From: Nitrospirota bacterium
GTDB lineage: Bacteria > Nitrospirota > Nitrospiria > Nitrospirales > Nitrospiraceae
NCBI GenBank assembly: GCA_020027965.1
Contig: JAHRHE010000004.1
Location: forward strand, 1 to 64,000
Length of the DNA stretch: 64,000 nt
Direction: 5' to 3'
The translations under genes were made by a program, and so were the position numbers. The notes under the pieces are model-generated. The model saw nothing but the letters and a program-made list of their open reading frames with translations. It was not told the DNA's origin and searched no databases. Positions 11,861 through 42,675 of the stretch are shown here, in pieces. Position 1 is the first letter of the stretch. The number at the start of each line of letters is the position of its first letter.

Positions 11861-11894
11861 GACGCGTCACTCGTCACCCGTCACGCGTCACGGC
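11861..11894. repeat. Heptamer array, word NCGTCAC
   Basis: Four exact tandem 7-mers, GCGTCAC, TCGTCAC, CCGTCAC and GCGTCAC, fill 11864-11891 between two converging genes. The first base of each word varies while CGTCAC is fixed. The same word family recurs near 18.1, 20.0, 26.7 and 34.9 kb. No clear inverted partner block is next to this copy. Confidence 0.85.
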
Positions 11895-17264: not shown

Positions 17265-18365
17265 TTATCGCTGACCTGTCGAAGCTCGACCAGGAAGCAA
17301 ACTGGCAATTACCACACATTCCAGGCCGAACGGCAGGTAGCCGGCGTACCCGAGCAGCGGCATCTCGAAGAGCTGAAAGCGATGCACGAAGGGCACGGCG
17401 TACTCCCAGTGGGCCAGACTCTTAAAATTCCATATCTCCCAAAAGAATCCACACTGCAGCGCCGCAAGGGCCGGGATCCAGACCGCCCGCCAATCACCGC
17501 GCTGCACGGATGAGAAGATCGTCTCTTCGCCCGACACCACTTGCAGCGACACGATCACCAACAAGGGCGAGACCCACAGCAGCGGGAACAGATAATCCGG
17601 CCAGATCCCGATGCCCATGAGTCCGGCGCTCGCACAAAGCAGCACGCCCCACCCGAGCATGGTGGCATGTTTGATCCGCATTGGCCAGAGATTCTGGAGT
17701 GCCAGGCTCAATCGTGGGAAGGTGGACAACCACTCGGTGGTGCCAAGCACGGCCGGCAGCACCGTCGAAAACGGCGGCGTGGCATACCAGACATACTCCA
17801 CCGGGCCAAGCTCGCTGATCCCCTCGTAATACCAGTTCTGTACAAAGCGATTCAGGTATTCAAAGAACCACCAGAACGCGGCACTCAAGGCGACCAGCGT
17901 CAGCAAATAGCCGGGTCTGTCCTTGAGCATGCAACGCCCGCTGCGGCGGAACGTAAGGGCGTTGATCACGAGGATATAGCCGACCCATAGCGGGGTGAAC
18001 GTATGCCGCTGCAGGTCTTCGAGCCACGCGAATCGGTTCCAGGCCAGCACCCAGGCTACTGCGGTGAGCATCACGCCGAGCCAGCCCCACCATGGGAGGC
18101 GTGACGCGTGACGGGTGACGCGTGACGCGTCACGAGACACACGAGCGGTCAGAATCCTGATCAGGAAGGGACTCACCATGACCAGGACGAAAAGCGCAAG
18201 ACCGATGAAGGCCGCCCACGAGAAGGGCGCATGCTCGACATAGCGGGTCACCGGCGGAAATTCCAGGTACTGCGCGACCGGCTTCCCGGCCACGGCCACT
18301 CCGAGCATCGGCAAGCCGACGAGGAGCGTAACGATGACCTGGACCTTGATCGAGAGCGATTTCAC
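17265..18365 (-). CDS. Multi-pass membrane protein carrying a translated repeat array
   Basis: The 366-aa protein has about nine hydrophobic segments (for example at 8-28, 47-70, 92-112, 125-140 and 150-170). No family motif is recognised. Residues about 73-89, between the second and third membrane segments, are encoded by the 35-base heptamer array at 18101-18135. They read SRDASRVTRHASR, a basic stretch unlike the rest. The word has no stop in any frame, so the array adds a loop without breaking the gene. The next gene begins close behind. Confidence 0.75.
   Translation of the reverse strand: MKSLSIKVQVIVTLLVGLPMLGVAVAGKPVAQYLEFPPVTRYVEHAPFSWAAFIGLALFVLVMVSPFLIRILTARVSRDASRVTRHASRLPWWGWLGVMLTAVAWVLAWNRFAWLEDLQRHTFTPLWVGYILVINALTFRRSGRCMLKDRPGYLLTLVALSAAFWWFFEYLNRFVQNWYYEGISELGPVEYVWYATPPFSTVLPAVLGTTEWLSTFPRLSLALQNLWPMRIKHATMLGWGVLLCASAGLMGIGIWPDYLFPLLWVSPLLVIVSLQVVSGEETIFSSVQRGDWRAVWIPALAALQCGFFWEIWNFKSLAHWEYAVPFVHRFQLFEMPLLGYAGYLPFGLECVVIASLLPGRASTGQR
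18101..18135. repeat. Heptamer array GTGACGN inside a coding sequence
   Basis: Four 7-mers, GTGACGC, GTGACGG, GTGACGC and GTGACGC, plus one inverted word GTCACGA fill exactly 35 bases. They lie within the membrane-protein gene at 17265-18365. This is the same word family as the intergenic arrays at 11.9, 20.0, 26.7 and 34.9 kb. Confidence 0.9.
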
Positions 18366-18522: not shown

Positions 18523-19956
18523 TCATGCCGTGACTTTAGCCAGCTTGCCGGCACGGAGGTATTGGTCCACGCCGGCAGCCATCTTCCGTCCCTCGGCGAT
18601 GGCCCACACGATGAGCGAGGCGCCGCGCTTGACGTCCCCGCCGGCGAACACGCCCTCCACGCTGGTCATGCAGTTCTCATCCACGGCCACGGCGCCGCGC
18701 GCGTCGTACTTCACATTCAGGCTGTCCAACAAGCCGTTCTTGACGGGCCCCGTGAAGCCCATGGCCAGGAGCACCAGATCCACCTCCATCTCGAAGTCGG
18801 TGCCCGGCATCGGCGTGAATTGACCCTTCTCGAATGCCACGCGGTGTGCGTGCAGCTTCGTGACGTGACCGTTCCGGCCGGTGAACTTGGTCGTCGAGAC
18901 GCTCCACTGGCGGTCGCACCCCTCTTCGTGCGCATGCGAGGTCCGGAGCTGCATCGGCCAGAGGGGCCAGGGCGTTGAACCGGCCCGCTTGGGTGGAGGC
19001 TCGGCCAGCAGCTCGAATTGGTGCACTTCGATGCAGCCCTGCCGGTGGGTCGTGCCCAGGCAATCGGAGCCCGTGTCGCCGCCGCCGATAATGACCACGC
19101 GCTTGCCCTTGGCCGTGATGGGTTCCTCCAGGATGGGGTCGCCGGCGTTCCGTTTGTTTTGCTGGGTCAGATAGTCCATCGCCAGGTGGATTCCCTCCAG
19201 CTCCCGACCCGGGACAGGCAGCTCGCGGGCCTGCTCGGCGCCATTCGCCAGACACACGGCGTCAAACTGCCGTTGCAATTCTTCCCCGCTGATGTCCACA
19301 CCGACATGGACATTGGGCTTGAACTCTACGCCCTCGGCCGTCATCTGCTCCAGCCGGCGATCAATGACCCACTTCTCCATCTTGAAGTCGGGAATGCCGT
19401 AGCGCAGGAGGCCCCCGATGCGGTCGGCCTTTTCGAAGACGGTCACGCGATGGCCCGCGCGCGCGAGTTGTTGTGCCGCGGCCAGGCCGGCCGGCCCGGA
19501 CCCGACGATGGCCACGGTCTTGCCTGTTCGTGTGACCGTCAGAATGGGCTCCACCCAGCCCTCATCGAAGCCCTTGTCGATGATGTTCCACTCGATCACC
19601 CGGATCGAGACCGGATCTTCGTTGATCCCCAGGACGCAGGCAGACTCGCAGGGAGCCGGGCACAGGCGCCCGGTAAACTCGGGGAAGTTATTGGTGGTGT
19701 GCAGCGCTTTCAGCGCGTCCTTCCAACGGCCCCGGTGCACCAGGTCGTTCCACTCGGGGATCAGGTTCACAACCGGGCACCCGTTGGCGCTCTGGCAGAA
19801 GGGAACCCCGCAGTCCATGCAGCGCGCCCCCTGGGCCTTGAGCGTGTCTTCGGGAAGCGGCTCGTAGAACTCCTTCCAGTCCCGGATGCGAACCTCGACC
19901 GGCCGGCGCTTGGGGCCCTCCCGGGCGTATTTCATGAATCCTTTCGGGTCAGCCAT
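18523..19956 (-). CDS. gltD: Glutamate synthase (NADPH), small subunit
   Basis: The 477-aa subunit passes electrons from NADPH through FAD and iron-sulfur centres to GltB. It has the N-terminal cysteine clusters (CMDCGVPFC and CPAPCESAC), the FAD motif VAIVGSGPAGLAAAQ near 148, the FEKADRIGGLLRYGIPDFKM segment and the NADPH motif VVIIGGGDTGSDC near 285. Length is typical. It lies 87 bases after gltB on the same strand, so it is a gltBD operon; the gap contains two repeat arrays rather than a promoter I can see. Confidence 0.96.
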   Translation of the reverse strand: MADPKGFMKYAREGPKRRPVEVRIRDWKEFYEPLPEDTLKAQGARCMDCGVPFCQSANGCPVVNLIPEWNDLVHRGRWKDALKALHTTNNFPEFTGRLCPAPCESACVLGINEDPVSIRVIEWNIIDKGFDEGWVEPILTVTRTGKTVAIVGSGPAGLAAAQQLARAGHRVTVFEKADRIGGLLRYGIPDFKMEKWVIDRRLEQMTAEGVEFKPNVHVGVDISGEELQRQFDAVCLANGAEQARELPVPGRELEGIHLAMDYLTQQNKRNAGDPILEEPITAKGKRVVIIGGGDTGSDCLGTTHRQGCIEVHQFELLAEPPPKRAGSTPWPLWPMQLRTSHAHEEGCDRQWSVSTTKFTGRNGHVTKLHAHRVAFEKGQFTPMPGTDFEMEVDLVLLAMGFTGPVKNGLLDSLNVKYDARGAVAVDENCMTSVEGVFAGGDVKRGASLIVWAIAEGRKMAAGVDQYLRAGKLAKVTA

Positions 19957-19963
19957 TTCCTGT

Positions 19964-20038
19964 TTCGTTCCTCGTATCTCGTGAAGCGTATCTCGTTTCG
20001 GAATTCCGACGCGTCACCCGTCACTCGTCACGCTTCAC
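19964..20038. repeat. Two adjacent heptamer arrays between gltB and gltD
   Basis: The first block, 19964-19998, holds five 7-mers of type NTCGTNN: TTCGTTC, CTCGTAT, CTCGTGA, AGCGTAT and CTCGTTT. After 12 bases a second block at 20011-20038 holds GCGTCAC, CCGTCAC, TCGTCAC and GCTTCAC. Two different words therefore keep the same 7-base period side by side. The arrays fill most of the 87-base gap inside the operon. Confidence 0.85.
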
Positions 20039-20043
20039 GCCTC

Positions 20044-24594
<4,551 letters not shown>

Positions 24595-25826: not shown

Positions 25827-26076
25827 TCGCACAGGACATTAGGGACTCGGTAATCAGCTCGTCGAGTTCACGGAACGCGGAAGGTCCAGGGCGAAGCGGA
25901 ACAAGTCACGCGTGAACGGCACCGGTGGCGTTGGACGACTGCCATCTTGTCTCTTAACGGTTGGCTTCTGCTTTCGGGAAGGGCCAGGCCTTCAACCCCG
26001 TGCCCGACGCCCTCTTGAGCCCCTCCTCGTCCCTCACCTACTGAGCGCTGACGTCTGATGGCTGACGGCTTTGCAG
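25827..26076. other. Intergenic stretch with a short heptamer array at its end
   Basis: This 250-base gap holds no ORF I can support. A GTCACGC, GTGAACG pair at about 25907-25920 resembles the heptamer word of other arrays. At 26047-26067 lie three tandem 7-mers, GCTGACG, TCTGATG and GCTGACG, directly before the AMMECR1 start. Nothing else is evident. Confidence 0.55.
26047..26067. repeat. Heptamer array, word GCTGACG
   Basis: Three tandem 7-mers GCTGACG, TCTGATG and GCTGACG end ten bases before the ATG at 26077. The word is close to GCTGATG in the element at 42.5 kb. The array sits where a Shine-Dalgarno sequence would be expected, and none is present. Confidence 0.7.
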
Positions 26077-26604
26077 ATGGCCCGAGCGGAACATCCCTTG
26101 GTCAGGCTGGCGGCGGAGGCGATTTCGGCATTTCTCAGGCGTCAGCAGATCATTGAGCCGCCAGAGAGCCTCTTCTTCGAGGTTCCAGCGGCTCTTCTTC
26201 CCGCCGGAGTATTCGTTTGCCTCAAGCGGGAGGGCCGCTTGCGCGGGTGCATTGGGACCACTGAGCCGATCCGCAAGACGATGGCGGCCGAGGTCATCGA
26301 GATCGCCATCGGGGCCGCGACACGAGATCCGCGATTTCCGCCGCTCGAATGGGCTGAACTGGACGATCTGGAGATTTCGGTGGACGTGCTGGGTCCCTCC
26401 GAACGAGTCTCGAGCCTGGAGGCGCTGGACCCCCGCCGGTACGGCATCGTGGTCCGATCCGGCGAGCGGCACAGCGTGCTCCTGCCGGATCTGGAGGGAA
26501 TCAATTCGGTGGCGGCGCAAGTAGAGGCGGCCCGGGAGAAGGCCGGCCTCGGATCTGATGAAGTCATCGAGCTGCTGCGGTTTGAAGCCACCAGGTACCG
26601 TTAG
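26077..26604 (+). CDS. AMMECR1-domain protein
   Basis: From ATG 26077 the protein has 175 aa and is cytoplasmic. It has the AMMECR1 hallmark GRLRGCIGTTEPIRKTMAAE near 55, followed by AATRDPRFPPLEWAELDDLEI and SVDVLGPSERV, the conserved order of this family. The biochemical role of AMMECR1 proteins is not settled; archaeal and bacterial members often lie beside MEMO or radical-SAM genes, which are not seen here. It is followed by a hairpin that looks like a terminator. Confidence 0.88.
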   Translation: MARAEHPLVRLAAEAISAFLRRQQIIEPPESLFFEVPAALLPAGVFVCLKREGRLRGCIGTTEPIRKTMAAEVIEIAIGAATRDPRFPPLEWAELDDLEISVDVLGPSERVSSLEALDPRRYGIVVRSGERHSVLLPDLEGINSVAAQVEAAREKAGLGSDEVIELLRFEATRYR

Positions 26605-26713
26605 GCGTGACACGTGATGAGTAATGTGTGAAGGGTGTTAGGTGATAACCTTTGGATTTATCACCTTCCTCTTTGGCTCTGACGCACCACGCGTCACGCG
26701 TGACGCGTCACGA
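26605..26713. repeat. Degenerate heptamer element before the DUF1015 gene
   Basis: The left part (26605-26640) is rich in GTG-type words such as GTGACAC and GTGATGA. The right part at 26684-26711 has GCACCAC, GCGTCAC, GCGTGAC and GCGTCAC as consecutive 7-mers, with one word inverted. The terminator hairpin lies between them. The left arm is too diverged for a firm reading. Confidence 0.6.
26641..26674 (+). terminator. Hairpin terminator after the AMMECR1 gene
   Basis: GGTGATAA (26641-26648) and TTATCACC (26658-26665) form a perfect 8-bp stem with a 9-base loop. TTCCTCTTT follows at 26666-26674. The T-run is interrupted, so termination may be partial. Confidence 0.55.
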
Positions 26714-28906: not shown

Positions 28907-28990
28907 TCTTTTTTGGGCAAGGTTGTTGAGGAGGATTGTGCCCAAGCTACTCCTCTGCTTTTCGATCAACCTGCTGTAGCGGTGAAAACA

Positions 28991-29063
28991 GTGCTGAGGA
29001 CTCAGCAATGAGGACTGAGAGGAAAAATCCGGACCTCAGTCCTCAGCACTCAGTCCTCAGCAC
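28991..29063. repeat. Heptamer hairpin, words GGACTGA / CCTCAGT
   Basis: The left arm reads GTGCTGA, GGACTCA, GCAATGA, GGACTGA (28991-29018). The right arm reads CCTCAGT, CCTCAGC, ACTCAGT, CCTCAGC (29034-29061) plus AC. GTGCTGAGGACT (28991-29002) is a perfect complement of 29052-29063, and TGAGGACTGAG (29009-29019) of 29035-29045. The two nested stems make one strong hairpin that ends 21 bases before the NtrC-type gene, ahead of its ribosome site. Confidence 0.9.
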
Positions 29064-29084
29064 TTTCGTGTAGCTGGAGAAGGT

Positions 29085-30482: not shown

Positions 30483-30517
30483 TTTTTCCCGTTCCCATCC
30501 TGGTAGGATAGGGACAG

Positions 30518-30586
30518 AGGCACGGGGCCCAGGCCAGGGTCTCTTGGATCCGCCTATCGCCTCGCGCCTCGAACCTCTGGCCTGCC
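30518..30586. repeat. Heptamer element, words AGGCNNN / GCCTNNN
   Basis: The right block holds GCCTATC, GCCTCGC, GCCTCGA, ACCTCTG and GCCTGCC at 30552-30586. The left block has AGGCACG (30518-30524) and AGGCCAG (30531-30537), the inverse word. The element fills most of the gap before the copper ATPase gene. The word is shared with the element at 41.2 kb. Confidence 0.8.
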
Positions 30587-30599
30587 TTCGGAGAACGCC

Positions 30600-34843: not shown

Positions 34844-34851
34844 ACACTAAC

Positions 34852-34965
34852 GTGACGGGTGACGGGTGACGGGTGACGGGAACACCAGAGCCCCCCAGCA
34901 ACCACATTCGCCGGACGAACGCTCAAGTCTTCACCGCCTGTCACGCGTGACGCGTCACCTGTCAC
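34852..34965. repeat. Heptamer hairpin GTGACGG / GTCAC between murU and amgK
   Basis: The left block is four perfect GTGACGG 7-mers at 34852-34879. The right block at 34938-34965 is CTGTCAC, GCGTGAC, GCGTCAC and CTGTCAC. The blocks are partly complementary across a 58-base spacer. It lies inside the putative operon, upstream of murU on the coding strand. Confidence 0.85.
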
Positions 34966-34969
34966 GGTC

Positions 34970-37865: not shown

Positions 37866-40049
37866 ATGAAAACTGTCTGCGTCGCCTTCCTCTGGCACAT
37901 GCATCAGCCGTACTACACCGACCCGGTGCTGGGATCGGCGAGCATGCCCTGGGTCCGCCTTCACGCGACCAAGGCGTATTTCGACATGGCCTACCTGATC
38001 CAGCGCTTCCCGGCGATCAGGGCTACCTTCAACTTTACCCCGTCGCTGCTGATCCAGCTCAAGGAAGTCGCCTCTGGGTCGGTGCGCGATCTCTTTCTGG
38101 AGCACGCGCGCCGCCCGGCGGCTGAGCTCACGCCGGCCGAGCGCGCCTTTCTGCTGCGCCATTTCTTCGCCGCGAACTGGGGCACCATGGTCCGGCCCTT
38201 CCCACGGTATCACGAACTGCTGGCCAGGCGCGGCGCGGAGGTAACGGGCGGGCATCTCGATCAACTGGCCAGGCGGTTCACGACGCAGGAGCTCCTGGAC
38301 TTACAGGTGTGGCACAACCTGGGCTGGTTCGGCTATGGGGCGCTCGCGCGCTTCCCGCGGCTGGCCGCGCTTCGCTCCAAGGACCGCGGCTTTACGGAAG
38401 AGGAAAAGCTGGAGGTGCTCGCGCTCCAGCAGGAGGCCGTCAGCGAGATCATCCCCATGTACCGGCGGTTGGCCGAGTCCGGCCAGATCGAACTGACCAC
38501 CACTCCATTCTATCATCCGATCCTCCCGCTGTTGATCGATACGGATTTCGCCAGGCGGCCGCGCCCTGAGACGGTCCTTCCTCAACGGTTCCAGGCGCCG
38601 GAGGACGCGGACATGCAGATCCGGAACGCGGTGGCCTTCCACGCGGAGACCTTCGGGACACCACCGATCGGCTTGTGGCCGTCCGAGGGATCGGTCTGTC
38701 CGGAGATGGTTCCGATGGTCCACCGGGCCGGTCTTCGCTGGGTTGCGACCGACGAGGCCATTCTGGCCCGCTCGCTGGCATCCTGGGATCGCCAAGCTGC
38801 GCTCTATCAGCCCTACCGGATCGGGCACCCAGGGGAAGAGATCGCGATTCTGTTCCGCGACCGTGAGCTGTCCGACGCATTCGGATTCGTGTATGCCAAA
38901 AATACCCCTGAGTCGGCCGTGGAGGACGTGATGCGCCGCCTCGGCGGCATCGCCCAGCACGCCCCCGGCGATCGCCTGCTGGTCGCGATCATTCTGGACG
39001 GGGAGAACCCGTGGGAGCATTACTTCAACGGGGGTGAACCTTTCTTGTCCGGGCTGTACACCGAGTTGACGAAGGGATCGCTCCCAGGAGTCCCTGACGT
39101 ACGGATCTCGGCGGAGACCATCAGCCAGACGTTGGCCGTCGTGCCTCCGACCGCGACCCTTGACCACCTGCATTCGGGCTCCTGGATCAACGCCGACTTC
39201 AAGATCTGGCTGGGACACCCTGAGGACAACCGGGCCTGGGACCTCCTGCGGGACACGCGAGCTCAGCTGCTGGAAGTGGAGAAGAGCCTGCCTCCGGAAC
39301 AGGCGCGCGCGGCCTGGGAAGAGCTGTACGCCGCCGAAGGCAGCGACTGGTGCTGGTGGTACGGCGACGACTTTGATACCGATTACAAACCGGAGTTCGA
39401 TCGGCTGTTCCGCACCCACCTGCGCAACGTCTACGCGCGTACGGGTTTACCGGCGCCGGACTTCTTGAATGAGCCACTGGTCCGGATGCGGGAGCCAGAC
39501 TCCGTGCGCCAGCCCGTCGGCCTGCTGTCGCCGATTCTGGACGGGCTCGTCTCGGATTTCTTCGAGTGGCGGGAGGCCGGCACCATCGATCCCTCGCCCC
39601 CGCTGGGCGCCATGTGGAGGTCGAACCGGTTGTTTACTTACCTGGGGTTCGGTTTCAGCCTGGAAACGCTTTTCCTGCGGCTCGATCCCGACGAGACCCT
39701 CGTGAGCGAGCGGACCGCCCCTGAGGTGGAGGTCCGCCTTCACACGAGTACGGCCACGCACAAGCTGACTTTCTCACTGGCCCCACCGGGGCCGGATAGT
39801 TTTACCTTGTTCGTGGCCTCCTCCGGCGGCCCTTTCGCGCAGGTGGGCCGGTTCACCTCGATCTGCCGCCGGGAGGTGATCGAGCTGGCCGTCCGGTTCA
39901 AGGAGCTGAATCTGGAGGCGGGGCAGGACGTCAGGATGAGCGTGATCGTGATGCAGGACGGCCTGGAAGTGGAGCGGTACCCGCGGCAACACCCGGTGGC
40001 CTTGACCGTCCCGGATCAGGACTTCGAAGCGAGGATGTGGCGTGTTTAA
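37866..40049 (+). CDS. Glycoside hydrolase family 57 protein
   Basis: The 727-aa cytoplasmic protein opens with VAFLWHMHQPYY, the GH57 motif 1 with its His pair, then TFNFTPSLLIQL (motif 2). GLWPSEGSVCPEM near 275 carries the nucleophile Glu, and ILDGENPWEHY near 378 an acidic motif in the region of the acid/base. A long C-terminal beta-rich domain follows. GH57 enzymes act on alpha-glucans as amylases, branching enzymes or 4-alpha-glucanotransferases; which one is not clear. It is followed by galT, pointing to glycogen or maltodextrin handling. Confidence 0.88.
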   Translation: MKTVCVAFLWHMHQPYYTDPVLGSASMPWVRLHATKAYFDMAYLIQRFPAIRATFNFTPSLLIQLKEVASGSVRDLFLEHARRPAAELTPAERAFLLRHFFAANWGTMVRPFPRYHELLARRGAEVTGGHLDQLARRFTTQELLDLQVWHNLGWFGYGALARFPRLAALRSKDRGFTEEEKLEVLALQQEAVSEIIPMYRRLAESGQIELTTTPFYHPILPLLIDTDFARRPRPETVLPQRFQAPEDADMQIRNAVAFHAETFGTPPIGLWPSEGSVCPEMVPMVHRAGLRWVATDEAILARSLASWDRQAALYQPYRIGHPGEEIAILFRDRELSDAFGFVYAKNTPESAVEDVMRRLGGIAQHAPGDRLLVAIILDGENPWEHYFNGGEPFLSGLYTELTKGSLPGVPDVRISAETISQTLAVVPPTATLDHLHSGSWINADFKIWLGHPEDNRAWDLLRDTRAQLLEVEKSLPPEQARAAWEELYAAEGSDWCWWYGDDFDTDYKPEFDRLFRTHLRNVYARTGLPAPDFLNEPLVRMREPDSVRQPVGLLSPILDGLVSDFFEWREAGTIDPSPPLGAMWRSNRLFTYLGFGFSLETLFLRLDPDETLVSERTAPEVEVRLHTSTATHKLTFSLAPPGPDSFTLFVASSGGPFAQVGRFTSICRREVIELAVRFKELNLEAGQDVRMSVIVMQDGLEVERYPRQHPVALTVPDQDFEARMWRV

Positions 40050-40060
40050 AACAGAAGCAT

Positions 40061-40153
40061 ATGGCAAATGGCTTATGGCTAATGGTTGATGAGGAAGAAT
40101 CCTTCTCGCCCTCACTGCGACCATGAACCATCGACCATTGGCCATCAACCATT
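40061..40153. repeat. Heptamer hairpin, words ATGGNNN / CCATNNN
   Basis: The left block is ATGGCAA, ATGGCTT, ATGGCTA, ATGGTTG (40061-40088). The right block is CCATGAA, CCATCGA, CCATTGG, CCATCAA, CCATT (40121-40153). Within these, AATGGTTGATG (40081-40091) is a perfect complement of 40143-40153. It fills the gap between the GH57 gene and galT, ending 12 bases before the galT ATG. Confidence 0.92.
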
Positions 40154-40165
40154 CTTCGAGGAACC

Positions 40166-41170
40166 ATGCCTGAGTTGCGACGCGACCCGGTGATAGGGCG
40201 GTGGGTGATCATTTCAACGGAGCGGGCGAACCGGCCGCACGATTTCTTTCACCACGAGGTGAGGGTCCAGGCCTCGACCGGTCTCTGCCCATTCTGTCCG
40301 GGCCAGGAGTCCCTGACCCCGACCGAGATCCTGGCTTATCGGCCGCAGGGGGGCGAGCACAACTCTTCGGGCTGGACGGTCCGCGTGGTCCCCAACAAGT
40401 TCCCTGCGCTCCAGGTCGAGGGCGAGCTGGGCCGCGAGGGCATCGGTCTCTACGACCGCATGAACGGCGTCGGCGCCCATGAGGTGATCATCGAGACTGC
40501 CGACCATAAAGAGACCCTCGCCACCCTGTCCCCGAAGCTGATCGAGGACGTGCTCTGGGCATTCCGCGACCGCATCGTCGACCTCAAACGGGACGTGCGC
40601 CTGCGCTACATCCTCGTGTTCAAGAACCACGGGGCGGCCGCCGGAGCCACGCTGGAGCATACCCACTCGCAACTCATCGCCCTCCCCGTCATTCCGACCA
40701 ACGTTCTCGCCGAGATCGAGGGCTGCCGGACGCACTTCCAGCAGAAGGAGCGCTGCATTTATTGCGACATCATCCGGCAGGAGATCTCGGACCGGGCCCG
40801 CCTGGTGGCCGAGAACCCGGAATTTCTGGCGATCACTCCGTTCGCCTCGCGCTTCCCGTTCGAGATGTGGATCCTTCCCAAGAGGCACGCGGCCTACTTC
40901 GAGGAAAGCCAGAAGACCCAGTTCGACATGTTGGCCCGCACACTTTCGGAGTGTTTGCGCCGGATGGACCACGTCCTGACCAGGCCGGCCTACAATTACA
41001 TCCTGCACACCTCACCGCTGCACGAGAAGACCGGCGACTTCTACCACTGGCATATCGAGCTCATTCCGAAGCTCACGCAGGTCGCGGGATTCGAATGGGG
41101 CACCGGCTTTTACATCAACCCGGTGACGCCGGAAGAAGCGGCCAGAGTTCTGCGGGAAGCAGAAATCTGA
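40166..41170 (+). CDS. galT: Galactose-1-phosphate uridylyltransferase family protein
   Basis: The 334-aa HIT-superfamily enzyme swaps UMP between UDP-glucose and a hexose 1-phosphate. It has MPELRRDPVIGRWVIIS, zinc-site CPFCPG and CIYCDI pairs, VVPNKFPAL, GAHEVIIET and LEHTHSQLIALP with the catalytic His-x-His-x-Gln. Length is typical. Some relatives beside GH57 genes act as ADP-glucose phosphorylases, so the true substrate may be a glucan-derived sugar phosphate. GGAACC before the ATG is a weak ribosome site; coupling with the upstream gene is possible. Confidence 0.88.
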   Translation: MPELRRDPVIGRWVIISTERANRPHDFFHHEVRVQASTGLCPFCPGQESLTPTEILAYRPQGGEHNSSGWTVRVVPNKFPALQVEGELGREGIGLYDRMNGVGAHEVIIETADHKETLATLSPKLIEDVLWAFRDRIVDLKRDVRLRYILVFKNHGAAAGATLEHTHSQLIALPVIPTNVLAEIEGCRTHFQQKERCIYCDIIRQEISDRARLVAENPEFLAITPFASRFPFEMWILPKRHAAYFEESQKTQFDMLARTLSECLRRMDHVLTRPAYNYILHTSPLHEKTGDFYHWHIELIPKLTQVAGFEWGTGFYINPVTPEEAARVLREAEI

Positions 41171-41172
41171 GG

Positions 41173-41343
41173 AAGGCGCGGGGCGCGAGGCGATGGGCCA
41201 GCGGTACGGATCTGATCCAAGGCAACTGGAGAACCGGCTCAATGAAACGACAATAGCTCTCACTTTCCCAACCTCGCGCCTCTAGCCTAGTGCCTCGCGC
41301 CTGCGCAGGTGCCTCTTGCCTATCGCCTGGCGGGAAGCTTATC
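41173..41343. repeat. Heptamer element, words NNGGCGN / GCCTNNN
   Basis: The left block has AAGGCGC, GGGGCGC, GAGGCGA, TGGGCCA (41173-41200). The right block has GCCTCTA, GCCTAGT, GCCTCGC, GCCTGCG, then a five-base slip, then GCCTCTT, GCCTATC and GCCTGGC (about 41278-41331). The words are inverse in sense (GGCG versus CGCC/GCCT). The element fills the gap before the ThiS-like gene. Confidence 0.85.
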
Positions 41344-42528: not shown

Positions 42529-42662
42529 GCTGATGGCTGATGGCGTCGAGCCGGAGGACAAGAGCCAATGGCGTATAGCCAATGGCGAATAGCTCGAGAG
42601 TCCCCCTTCTTGCCATAGGCTCTCAGCCATCAGCCCTTCGGTTCTGGCTATTAGCCATCAGC
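42529..42662. repeat. Heptamer hairpin, words GCTGATG / AGCCATCAGC
   Basis: The left block starts GCTGATG, GCTGATG (42529-42542), followed by a second 7-base series GCCAATG, GCGTATA, GCCAATG, GCGAATA, GCTCGAG. The right part has AGCCATCAGC at 42625-42634 and again at 42653-42662, both perfect complements of GCTGATGGCT at the left end. It fills the gap between the thiolase gene and the DnaJ promoter. Confidence 0.88.
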
Positions 42663-42675
42663 CCCACACTCCTTC

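Follow-up and report, generated by a model that had tools for sequence, protein, structure and literature searches.

The window, meaning the whole 64,000-nt stretch of DNA that was analysed, comes from a Nitrospirota genome of 3.6 Mb, in which it is contig 146; the neighbours of its galT belong to Nitrospira and its kin. The gap between a glycosyl hydrolase family 57 (GH57) gene and galT, which is syntenic upstream of galT in most Nitrospira loci examined, holds two facing arms of 7-nt words (heptads), reading ATGGCAA, ATGGCTT, ATGGCTA, ATGGTTG and ATG in the 5′ arm and CCATGAA, CCATCGA, CCATTGG, CCATCAA and CCATT in the 3′ arm. This array (40061–40153) was wholly missed by Tandem Repeats Finder, and word-specific searches and standard tandem-repeat tools overlook most elements of this kind. 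The arrays of the window, with the two genes flanking the galT gap, are as follows.

11862–11892, no strand assigned: single array ACGCGTC in a convergent gap, with little partner
18099–18134, minus: in-frame coding heptad array GTGACGC in a variable loop of ORF 17265–18365
19947–20054, minus: two adjoining arrays, NTCGTNN and CGTCACN
26034–26083, plus: single array GCTGANG
26599–26622, plus: 5′ arm GTGANNN
26682–26705, plus: 3′ inverse arm CGTCACG
28990–29019, plus: 5′ arm GTGCTGA/GGACTGA
29035–29064, plus: 3′ inverse arm TCAGTCC/TCAGCAC, mostly mirrored in register
30537–30593, plus: C-rich heptad array GCCTNNN, with a weak partner at 30512–30528
34851–34880, no strand assigned: arm of four GTGACGG, the 3′ arm for minus-strand genes and G-rich on the plus strand
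34937–34966, no strand assigned: inverse partner of the 34851–34880 arm
37866–40049, plus: GH57 gene, upstream of the galT gap (Pfam PF03065)
40061–40093, plus: 5′ G-rich heptad arm ATGGYYR of the GH57-galT gap, by reading and by scan (best ungapped arm 40067–40091)
40118–40153, plus: 3′ C-rich inverse arm CCATNNN of the GH57-galT gap, by reading and by scan (end 12 nt upstream of galT)
40166–41170, plus: galT-like galactose-1-phosphate uridylyltransferase gene (Pfam PF01087)
41174–41210, plus: 5′ arm of the GGCGCGA/AGGCGAT family
41266–41302, plus: 3′ inverse arm GCCTNNN
42535–42586, plus: composite 5′ arm GCTGATG/AGCCAAT
42612–42663, plus: 3′ inverse arm of the GCTGATG/AGCCAAT array

The original prediction had listed period-7 blocks in a series of gaps, and every listed tract was read or detected at or near its predicted position. 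It had also held that most blocks have a second block with the inverse word. That part stands with amendments: partners are weak or absent at 11861 and at 30518–30586, and two partner arms had been overlooked (26599–26622 and 34937–34966), as had the coding-frame array at 18099–18134. The latter lies within a membrane-protein gene, where it encodes the stretch RVSRDASRVTRHASRL; the loop concerned is not conserved between orthologues. In genome G002 (L187) the orthologue carries heptad arrays of its own in the same loop, of the GATCTCG and CTTCACG types, and comparison of the two genes gave no clean insertion in either.

Period-7 signal and word families

Intergenic 7-base autocorrelation was scanned independently of sequence, using windows of 28 bases that needed 17 or more matches at the lag in question, in samples of about 420 kb of the genome of the window (248 gaps, 36.6 kb) and 400 kb of genome G011. 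At lag 7 the gaps of this genome gave 281 matches per 100 kb, against 3.3 in mononucleotide-shuffled gaps and 10.7 in coding DNA. Peaks were confined to multiples of 7 (139, 52 and 22 matches per 100 kb at lags 14, 21 and 28), with lags 4, 5, 8, 9, 10 and 11 near background. The same scan gave 118 in the gaps of relatives against 2.2 after shuffling, and no period-7 match in 50 kb of E. coli K-12. Arrays of this type are also carried by three loci outside Nitrospirota (L072, L078 and L084).

Recurring word families are GTGANNN, ATGGNNN, CTGAGNN, AGGCNNN and GAATNNN, each with a conserved core of 4–5 nt. Positions within a word differ in conservation beyond what uniform mutation of identical copies would give, the core being conserved and the other positions variable. 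In 51 of the 104 arrays examined in this genome the most frequent core was ATGG or GTGA, and rarer words formed a tail. The pattern (ATGGN3)x4 matched 39 times in the whole genome and its reversed control 0 times; for TGAG and GTGA such a control is unclean, the reverse of one word being able to equal a phase of another. Each genome holds hundreds of arrays drawn from a small lexicon of 7-nt words. Whole-genome counts of patterns of four cores at 7-nt spacing were used to compare the lexicons of five genomes, in the order ATGG/TGAG/AGGC/GAAT/GTGA.

Genome of the window: 39/10/10/8/82
G002: 0/6/7/68/48
G011: 12/5/4/1/188
G013: 48/8/5/6/19
G019: 15/5/4/1/73

Counts for all five patterns were near zero in families f2 and f4, and the GTGA pattern was patchy over the phylum sample (75 of 198 genomes). 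The claim that the word changes from locus to locus is half correct, as many words recur at many loci beside the tail of rarer ones. That the arrays have word length, degeneracy and inverted layout in common, and not one sequence, is supported. Since period 7 is far commoner than in shuffled sequence and the elements do not share a single consensus, the observation stands.

Several loci depart from the usual form. In genome G032 (family f3) GTGAN3 matched 51 times and the remaining four words not at all, and a 69 kb sample showed little period-7 signal; these matches are possibly a different repeat. In G036 four contigs (C166, C203, C206 and C422) carry perfect, long, undegenerate tandem AGGCTGA heptamers, and the genome is otherwise without such arrays. 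Three arrays stand side by side in a single gap of L089 (2308–2483; types GCGTGAT, GTGGTNA and CTGAGAA), as if gaps could accumulate several word families. A perfect GTGAAGC array reaches a contig end in G145 (C3, 2–54), which suggests that assemblies break at long arrays and that counts of these are too low.

Change at orthologous gaps and relation between the arms

In Nitrospira-type genomes at least nine types of inverted heptads occupy the same place in the galT gap (ATGGYYR, CGAGNNG, CGTGAAN, GTGAGGG, AGGCNAN, GTGCTGA, TTGAATG, TCAATGN and AGCGANN). Gap states were labelled by hand in 55 genomes, with 'none' and period 8 (two cases) among the states; on the galT tree of these genomes at least 23 changes of state were required (20 when 'none' was excluded). 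Apparent period 8 was seen in the galT gap of N. moscoviensis (L013, 9905–10000) and of L124, with the words GTGATCGA GTGAGTTG GTGATTTC; the others there have period 7. A second orthologous gap, compared in 41 species, likewise showed many word families. The same family was kept in 3/3 pairs at flank identities of at least 97%, 3/8 at 94–97%, 12/25 at 91–94%, 12/33 at 88–91% and 13/57 at 85–88% (ordered pairs, mutually non-independent). A different-family array was found in the orthologue, at 80–88% flank identity, for 33.6% of gaps with an array and 16.5% of those without, and above 88% for 23% and 8.4% (pairs again non-independent). This roughly twofold excess may reflect selection in favour of some hairpin, a site effect or the persistence of permissive sites.

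Alignment of orthologous gaps showed that close relatives differ by gain or loss of whole words, as expected from the slippage that had been proposed. Among indels of at least 4 nt in close pairs (gap alignments at least 88% identical), 10 of 15 in array gaps were exactly 7, 14 or 21 nt long, as against 1 of 13 where no array had been called in the gap. One-arm indels of whole words were seen in L045/L052 (7 nt), L016/L017 (7 nt), L038/L050 (14 and 21 nt) and L039/L040 (14 nt), and no mirrored, compensating indel was found in the opposite arm in the clean cases among close pairs. Whole hairpins were lost by deletion, with junctions at short direct repeats in two cases judged by eye (L014 and L043). 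In L039, compared with L038 and L050, the hairpin has been replaced as a unit with the gap edges kept (flank identity 96% and 92–93%). This hairpin shares 90% identity with its counterpart in the more distant L046, even though the L039 galT groups with those of L038 and L050; the likeness would fit an allele passed on through conserved flanks, or an old polymorphism.

As a word-permutation test of in-register copying was ambiguous (the register is set by the alignment), pairing in cis was compared with pairing in trans. Scores in this genome were 16.8 for arms of the same locus, 15.3 for arms of the same family at other loci and 8.5 for arms of other families, and a fraction of 0.45 of trans pairings equalled or exceeded the cis pairing. 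Duplex energies agreed with these scores, and G011 and relatives showed a modest cis advantage. Arms were common to several loci (56/80 and 27/54), loops seldom so (4/31 and 0/15). The two arms of a locus are mostly not copies of each other. Perfect palindromes do occur, as a minority; word-for-word mirroring was seen in L060 (26/26 mirrored), L032, L005 and the window array at 28990–29064. It had been proposed that a word spreads from a local seed and then inverts. The first step is weakened, genomes using a small common lexicon in genome-specific proportions. Inversion is not supported as a general rule, given the slight cis advantage over same-family arms, the one-arm indels without mirror change and the minority status of recent-looking palindromes.

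Placement, polarity and candidate explanations

Gap classes were counted with gene calls from a simple ORF heuristic, and on that basis arrays occupied 39% of tandem, 35% of convergent and 14% of divergent gaps of 60–130 nt in this genome, and 37%, 25% and 5% of longer ones; 49 of 125 tandem gaps held arrays as against 3 of 34 divergent gaps. In relatives, with the same heuristic, the counts for 60–130 nt gaps were 58/201 tandem and 0/40 divergent. The typical layout is a G-rich arm of 4–5 degenerate heptads followed by a C-rich inverse arm, with median distances in tandem gaps of 5–6 nt from the stop codon to the first arm and 10–11 nt from the second arm to the start codon. The 5′ arm had G>C in 97 elements and G<C in 10. 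Unpaired arrays kept the same polarity by position (near the stop, G 21 and C 4; near the start, C 27 and G 10). No U-tract followed the stem in any of 92 arrays, so the arrays are not intrinsic terminators. In this genome and relatives together, TGA codons occurred in 1.51 frames of the 5′ arms, against 0.73 in column-permuted words (z 8.7). Provision of stop codons was considered as a purpose of these arms and set aside, as the excess may reflect merely the GTGA/CTGA lexicon.

The genome is a metagenome assembly of 263 contigs, and such assemblies can invite the reading that arrays are artefacts or chance; the signal is more than 80-fold above shuffles, and arrays are present in the closed genomes of N. 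moscoviensis (NZ_CP011801, L013) and N. defluvii (FP929003, L057), leaving this reading a negligible probability. A stronger contender, possible though somewhat unlikely, is that the arrays are functional RNA hairpins of intercistronic 3′-UTRs that stabilise mRNA ends, insulate neighbour genes or mask C-rich Rho-binding RNA, the last through pairing with the G-rich arm, whose transcription comes just before. Selection would then keep the hairpin and not its sequence, so that words drift and get swapped. This accords with arms that span the gap from about 5 nt past the stop to about 10 nt ahead of the start, with the scarcity of arrays in divergent gaps and with the refilling of the same gap by other families. 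Predicted folds had z-scores of −2.8 to −8.2 in nine of ten cases and −2.5 in the tenth, although such predicted stability is what any inverted repeat gives. Against it, two tests detected no RNA-level selection: G-U pairs in the arms (121) were no commoner than A-C mismatches (133), and sense RNA was predicted to fold no better than antisense. Gain and loss of words in one arm went uncompensated, and U-tracts were lacking in the 92 arrays. No Rfam family matched within the window.

Dispersed, palindromic, intergenic elements in hundreds of copies, with hairpin polarity, also recall REP/REPIN- or MITE-like palindromes spread by a transposase (RAYT/Y1 or IS). This origin is very unlikely and already largely refuted. 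Copies have word families in common and not one consensus, loops are not copied between loci, and replacement occurs without net insertion. In array/no-array pairs no target duplication was seen, nor was a clean recent gain found among them. A RAYT/Y1 link was rejected in view of several array-rich genomes (G018, G016, G145, G009 and G180) in which no Y1 transposase (PF01797) match was found. A slim chance is given to putative protein-binding arrays, in which a multi-domain DNA- or RNA-binding protein would read the core at 7-nt spacing and leave the variable positions free. Conserved cores with spacers variable beyond uniform mutation, and identical cores across many genera, speak for such a reader; against it, the many cores per genome and per orthologous site would demand that a single reader recognise them without regard to sequence.

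The reading we prefer, with confidence about evenly balanced, is that the elements form a DNA-level class of repeat, dispersed inverted heptamer arrays of intergenic DNA, built from a small 7-nt lexicon by slippage and recombination. Arms gain and lose whole words separately, and 7-nt slippage in replication or repair would be the step by which they grow. Hairpins are lost by deletion, and the two junctions in L014 and L043 suggest that short direct repeats take part; hairpins are also replaced as units between close relatives. The gaps that they occupy lack promoters, and their polarity is fixed. New word families would enter a gap mainly through recombination with alleles of related strains, a route to which the L039/L046 likeness points, and spread within a family may involve exchange between arrays. 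The inverted pair would be kept where a self-pairing tract is tolerated or mildly useful in a co-transcribed gap, and promoters and most coding DNA would exclude such tracts. Against this explanation, the entry of a new family into a gap was not caught in any comparison, and slippage alone fails to explain a lexicon common to many genera or the G-first polarity; the roughly twofold excess of different-family arrays in orthologues of array gaps also counts against it. An improbable further proposal is a process dedicated to writing heptads, in which an enzyme or a templating RNA stepping by 7 nt would continually rewrite non-promoter gaps from the shared lexicon with fixed 5′-purine polarity. 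Unchanged sites would then receive hairpins made of new words, and each published one-word array (Xanthomonas, Beggiatoaceae, Geobacter, cyanobacteria) would be one dialect of this process.

Orthologous gaps with constant architecture (place, size and polarity) and many sequences form a natural experiment. Steps of 7, 14 and 21 nt, together with the polarity, are constraints on any model of repeat growth, and the question 'why seven?' becomes testable by strain comparison and mutation assays.

Comparison with known heptamer repeats

Cyanobacterial STRR are short tandem heptanucleotides in gaps, described as particular words, and at the level of that general description the Nitrospira arrays resemble them as tandem heptanucleotides in gaps. 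REP/REPIN elements are likewise dispersed intergenic palindromes, with a fixed consensus and a link to the RAYT transposase, neither of which is true of the Nitrospira arrays; MITEs have a common internal sequence, unlike the array loops. Searches of the literature turned up no description of these arrays in Nitrospira.

Fixed-word STRR had been named as the nearest parallel, and a closer one exists in the inverted heptamer pairs of Xanthomonas. Heptamer repeats have been described as GGGAATC in Xanthomonas and GGGGA(C/T)T in Anabaena (Rehm et al., 2015; PMC4692102). Xanthomonas genomes hold 70–75 inverted GGGAATC pairs each, mainly between aligned or convergent genes and seldom between divergent ones, the coding strand being G-rich just past the stop and the non-coding strand just ahead of the start; at conserved positions their length and sequence differ between two close species (PMC4692102). 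The 7-nt unit, intergenic location, inverted pairing, G-first polarity and paucity in divergent gaps all recur in the Nitrospira arrays. Xanthomonas has one G-run word per genome, capable of forming G-quadruplexes (PMC4692102), whereas no single quadruplex-forming G-run word was found in Nitrospira, where the many families have cores without GGG (GTGA, ATGG, TGAG, AGGC and GAAT), exact tandem copies are few and families are swapped at orthologous gaps.

TAACTGA direct repeats in Beggiatoaceae, cyanobacteria and Bacteroidetes are intergenic and adjoin start codons, related 7-mers split the sets, and Cyanothece strains differ mostly by 7-nt steps (MacGregor, 2015; PMC4679880). They are single-word direct repeats without an inverted partner and with related words rare (PMC4679880), in contrast to the inverted, many-worded Nitrospira arrays. 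In Geobacter metallireducens the heptanucleotide elements GGGACCG and MTYCTGA are described as 4–5 tandem heptamers at dozens of sites, a degenerate word among them (PMC2700814); each is an alignable family, and in the text examined inverted polar pairs are not reported, unlike in Nitrospira. The comparison suggests that several heptamer repeats published apart from one another are variants of a single phenomenon. What was already known is the one-word version with the same polarity, Xanthomonas GGGAATC; what is new here is that a genome has many word families, that families are swapped at orthologous gaps whose architecture is conserved, and that the two arms are independent.
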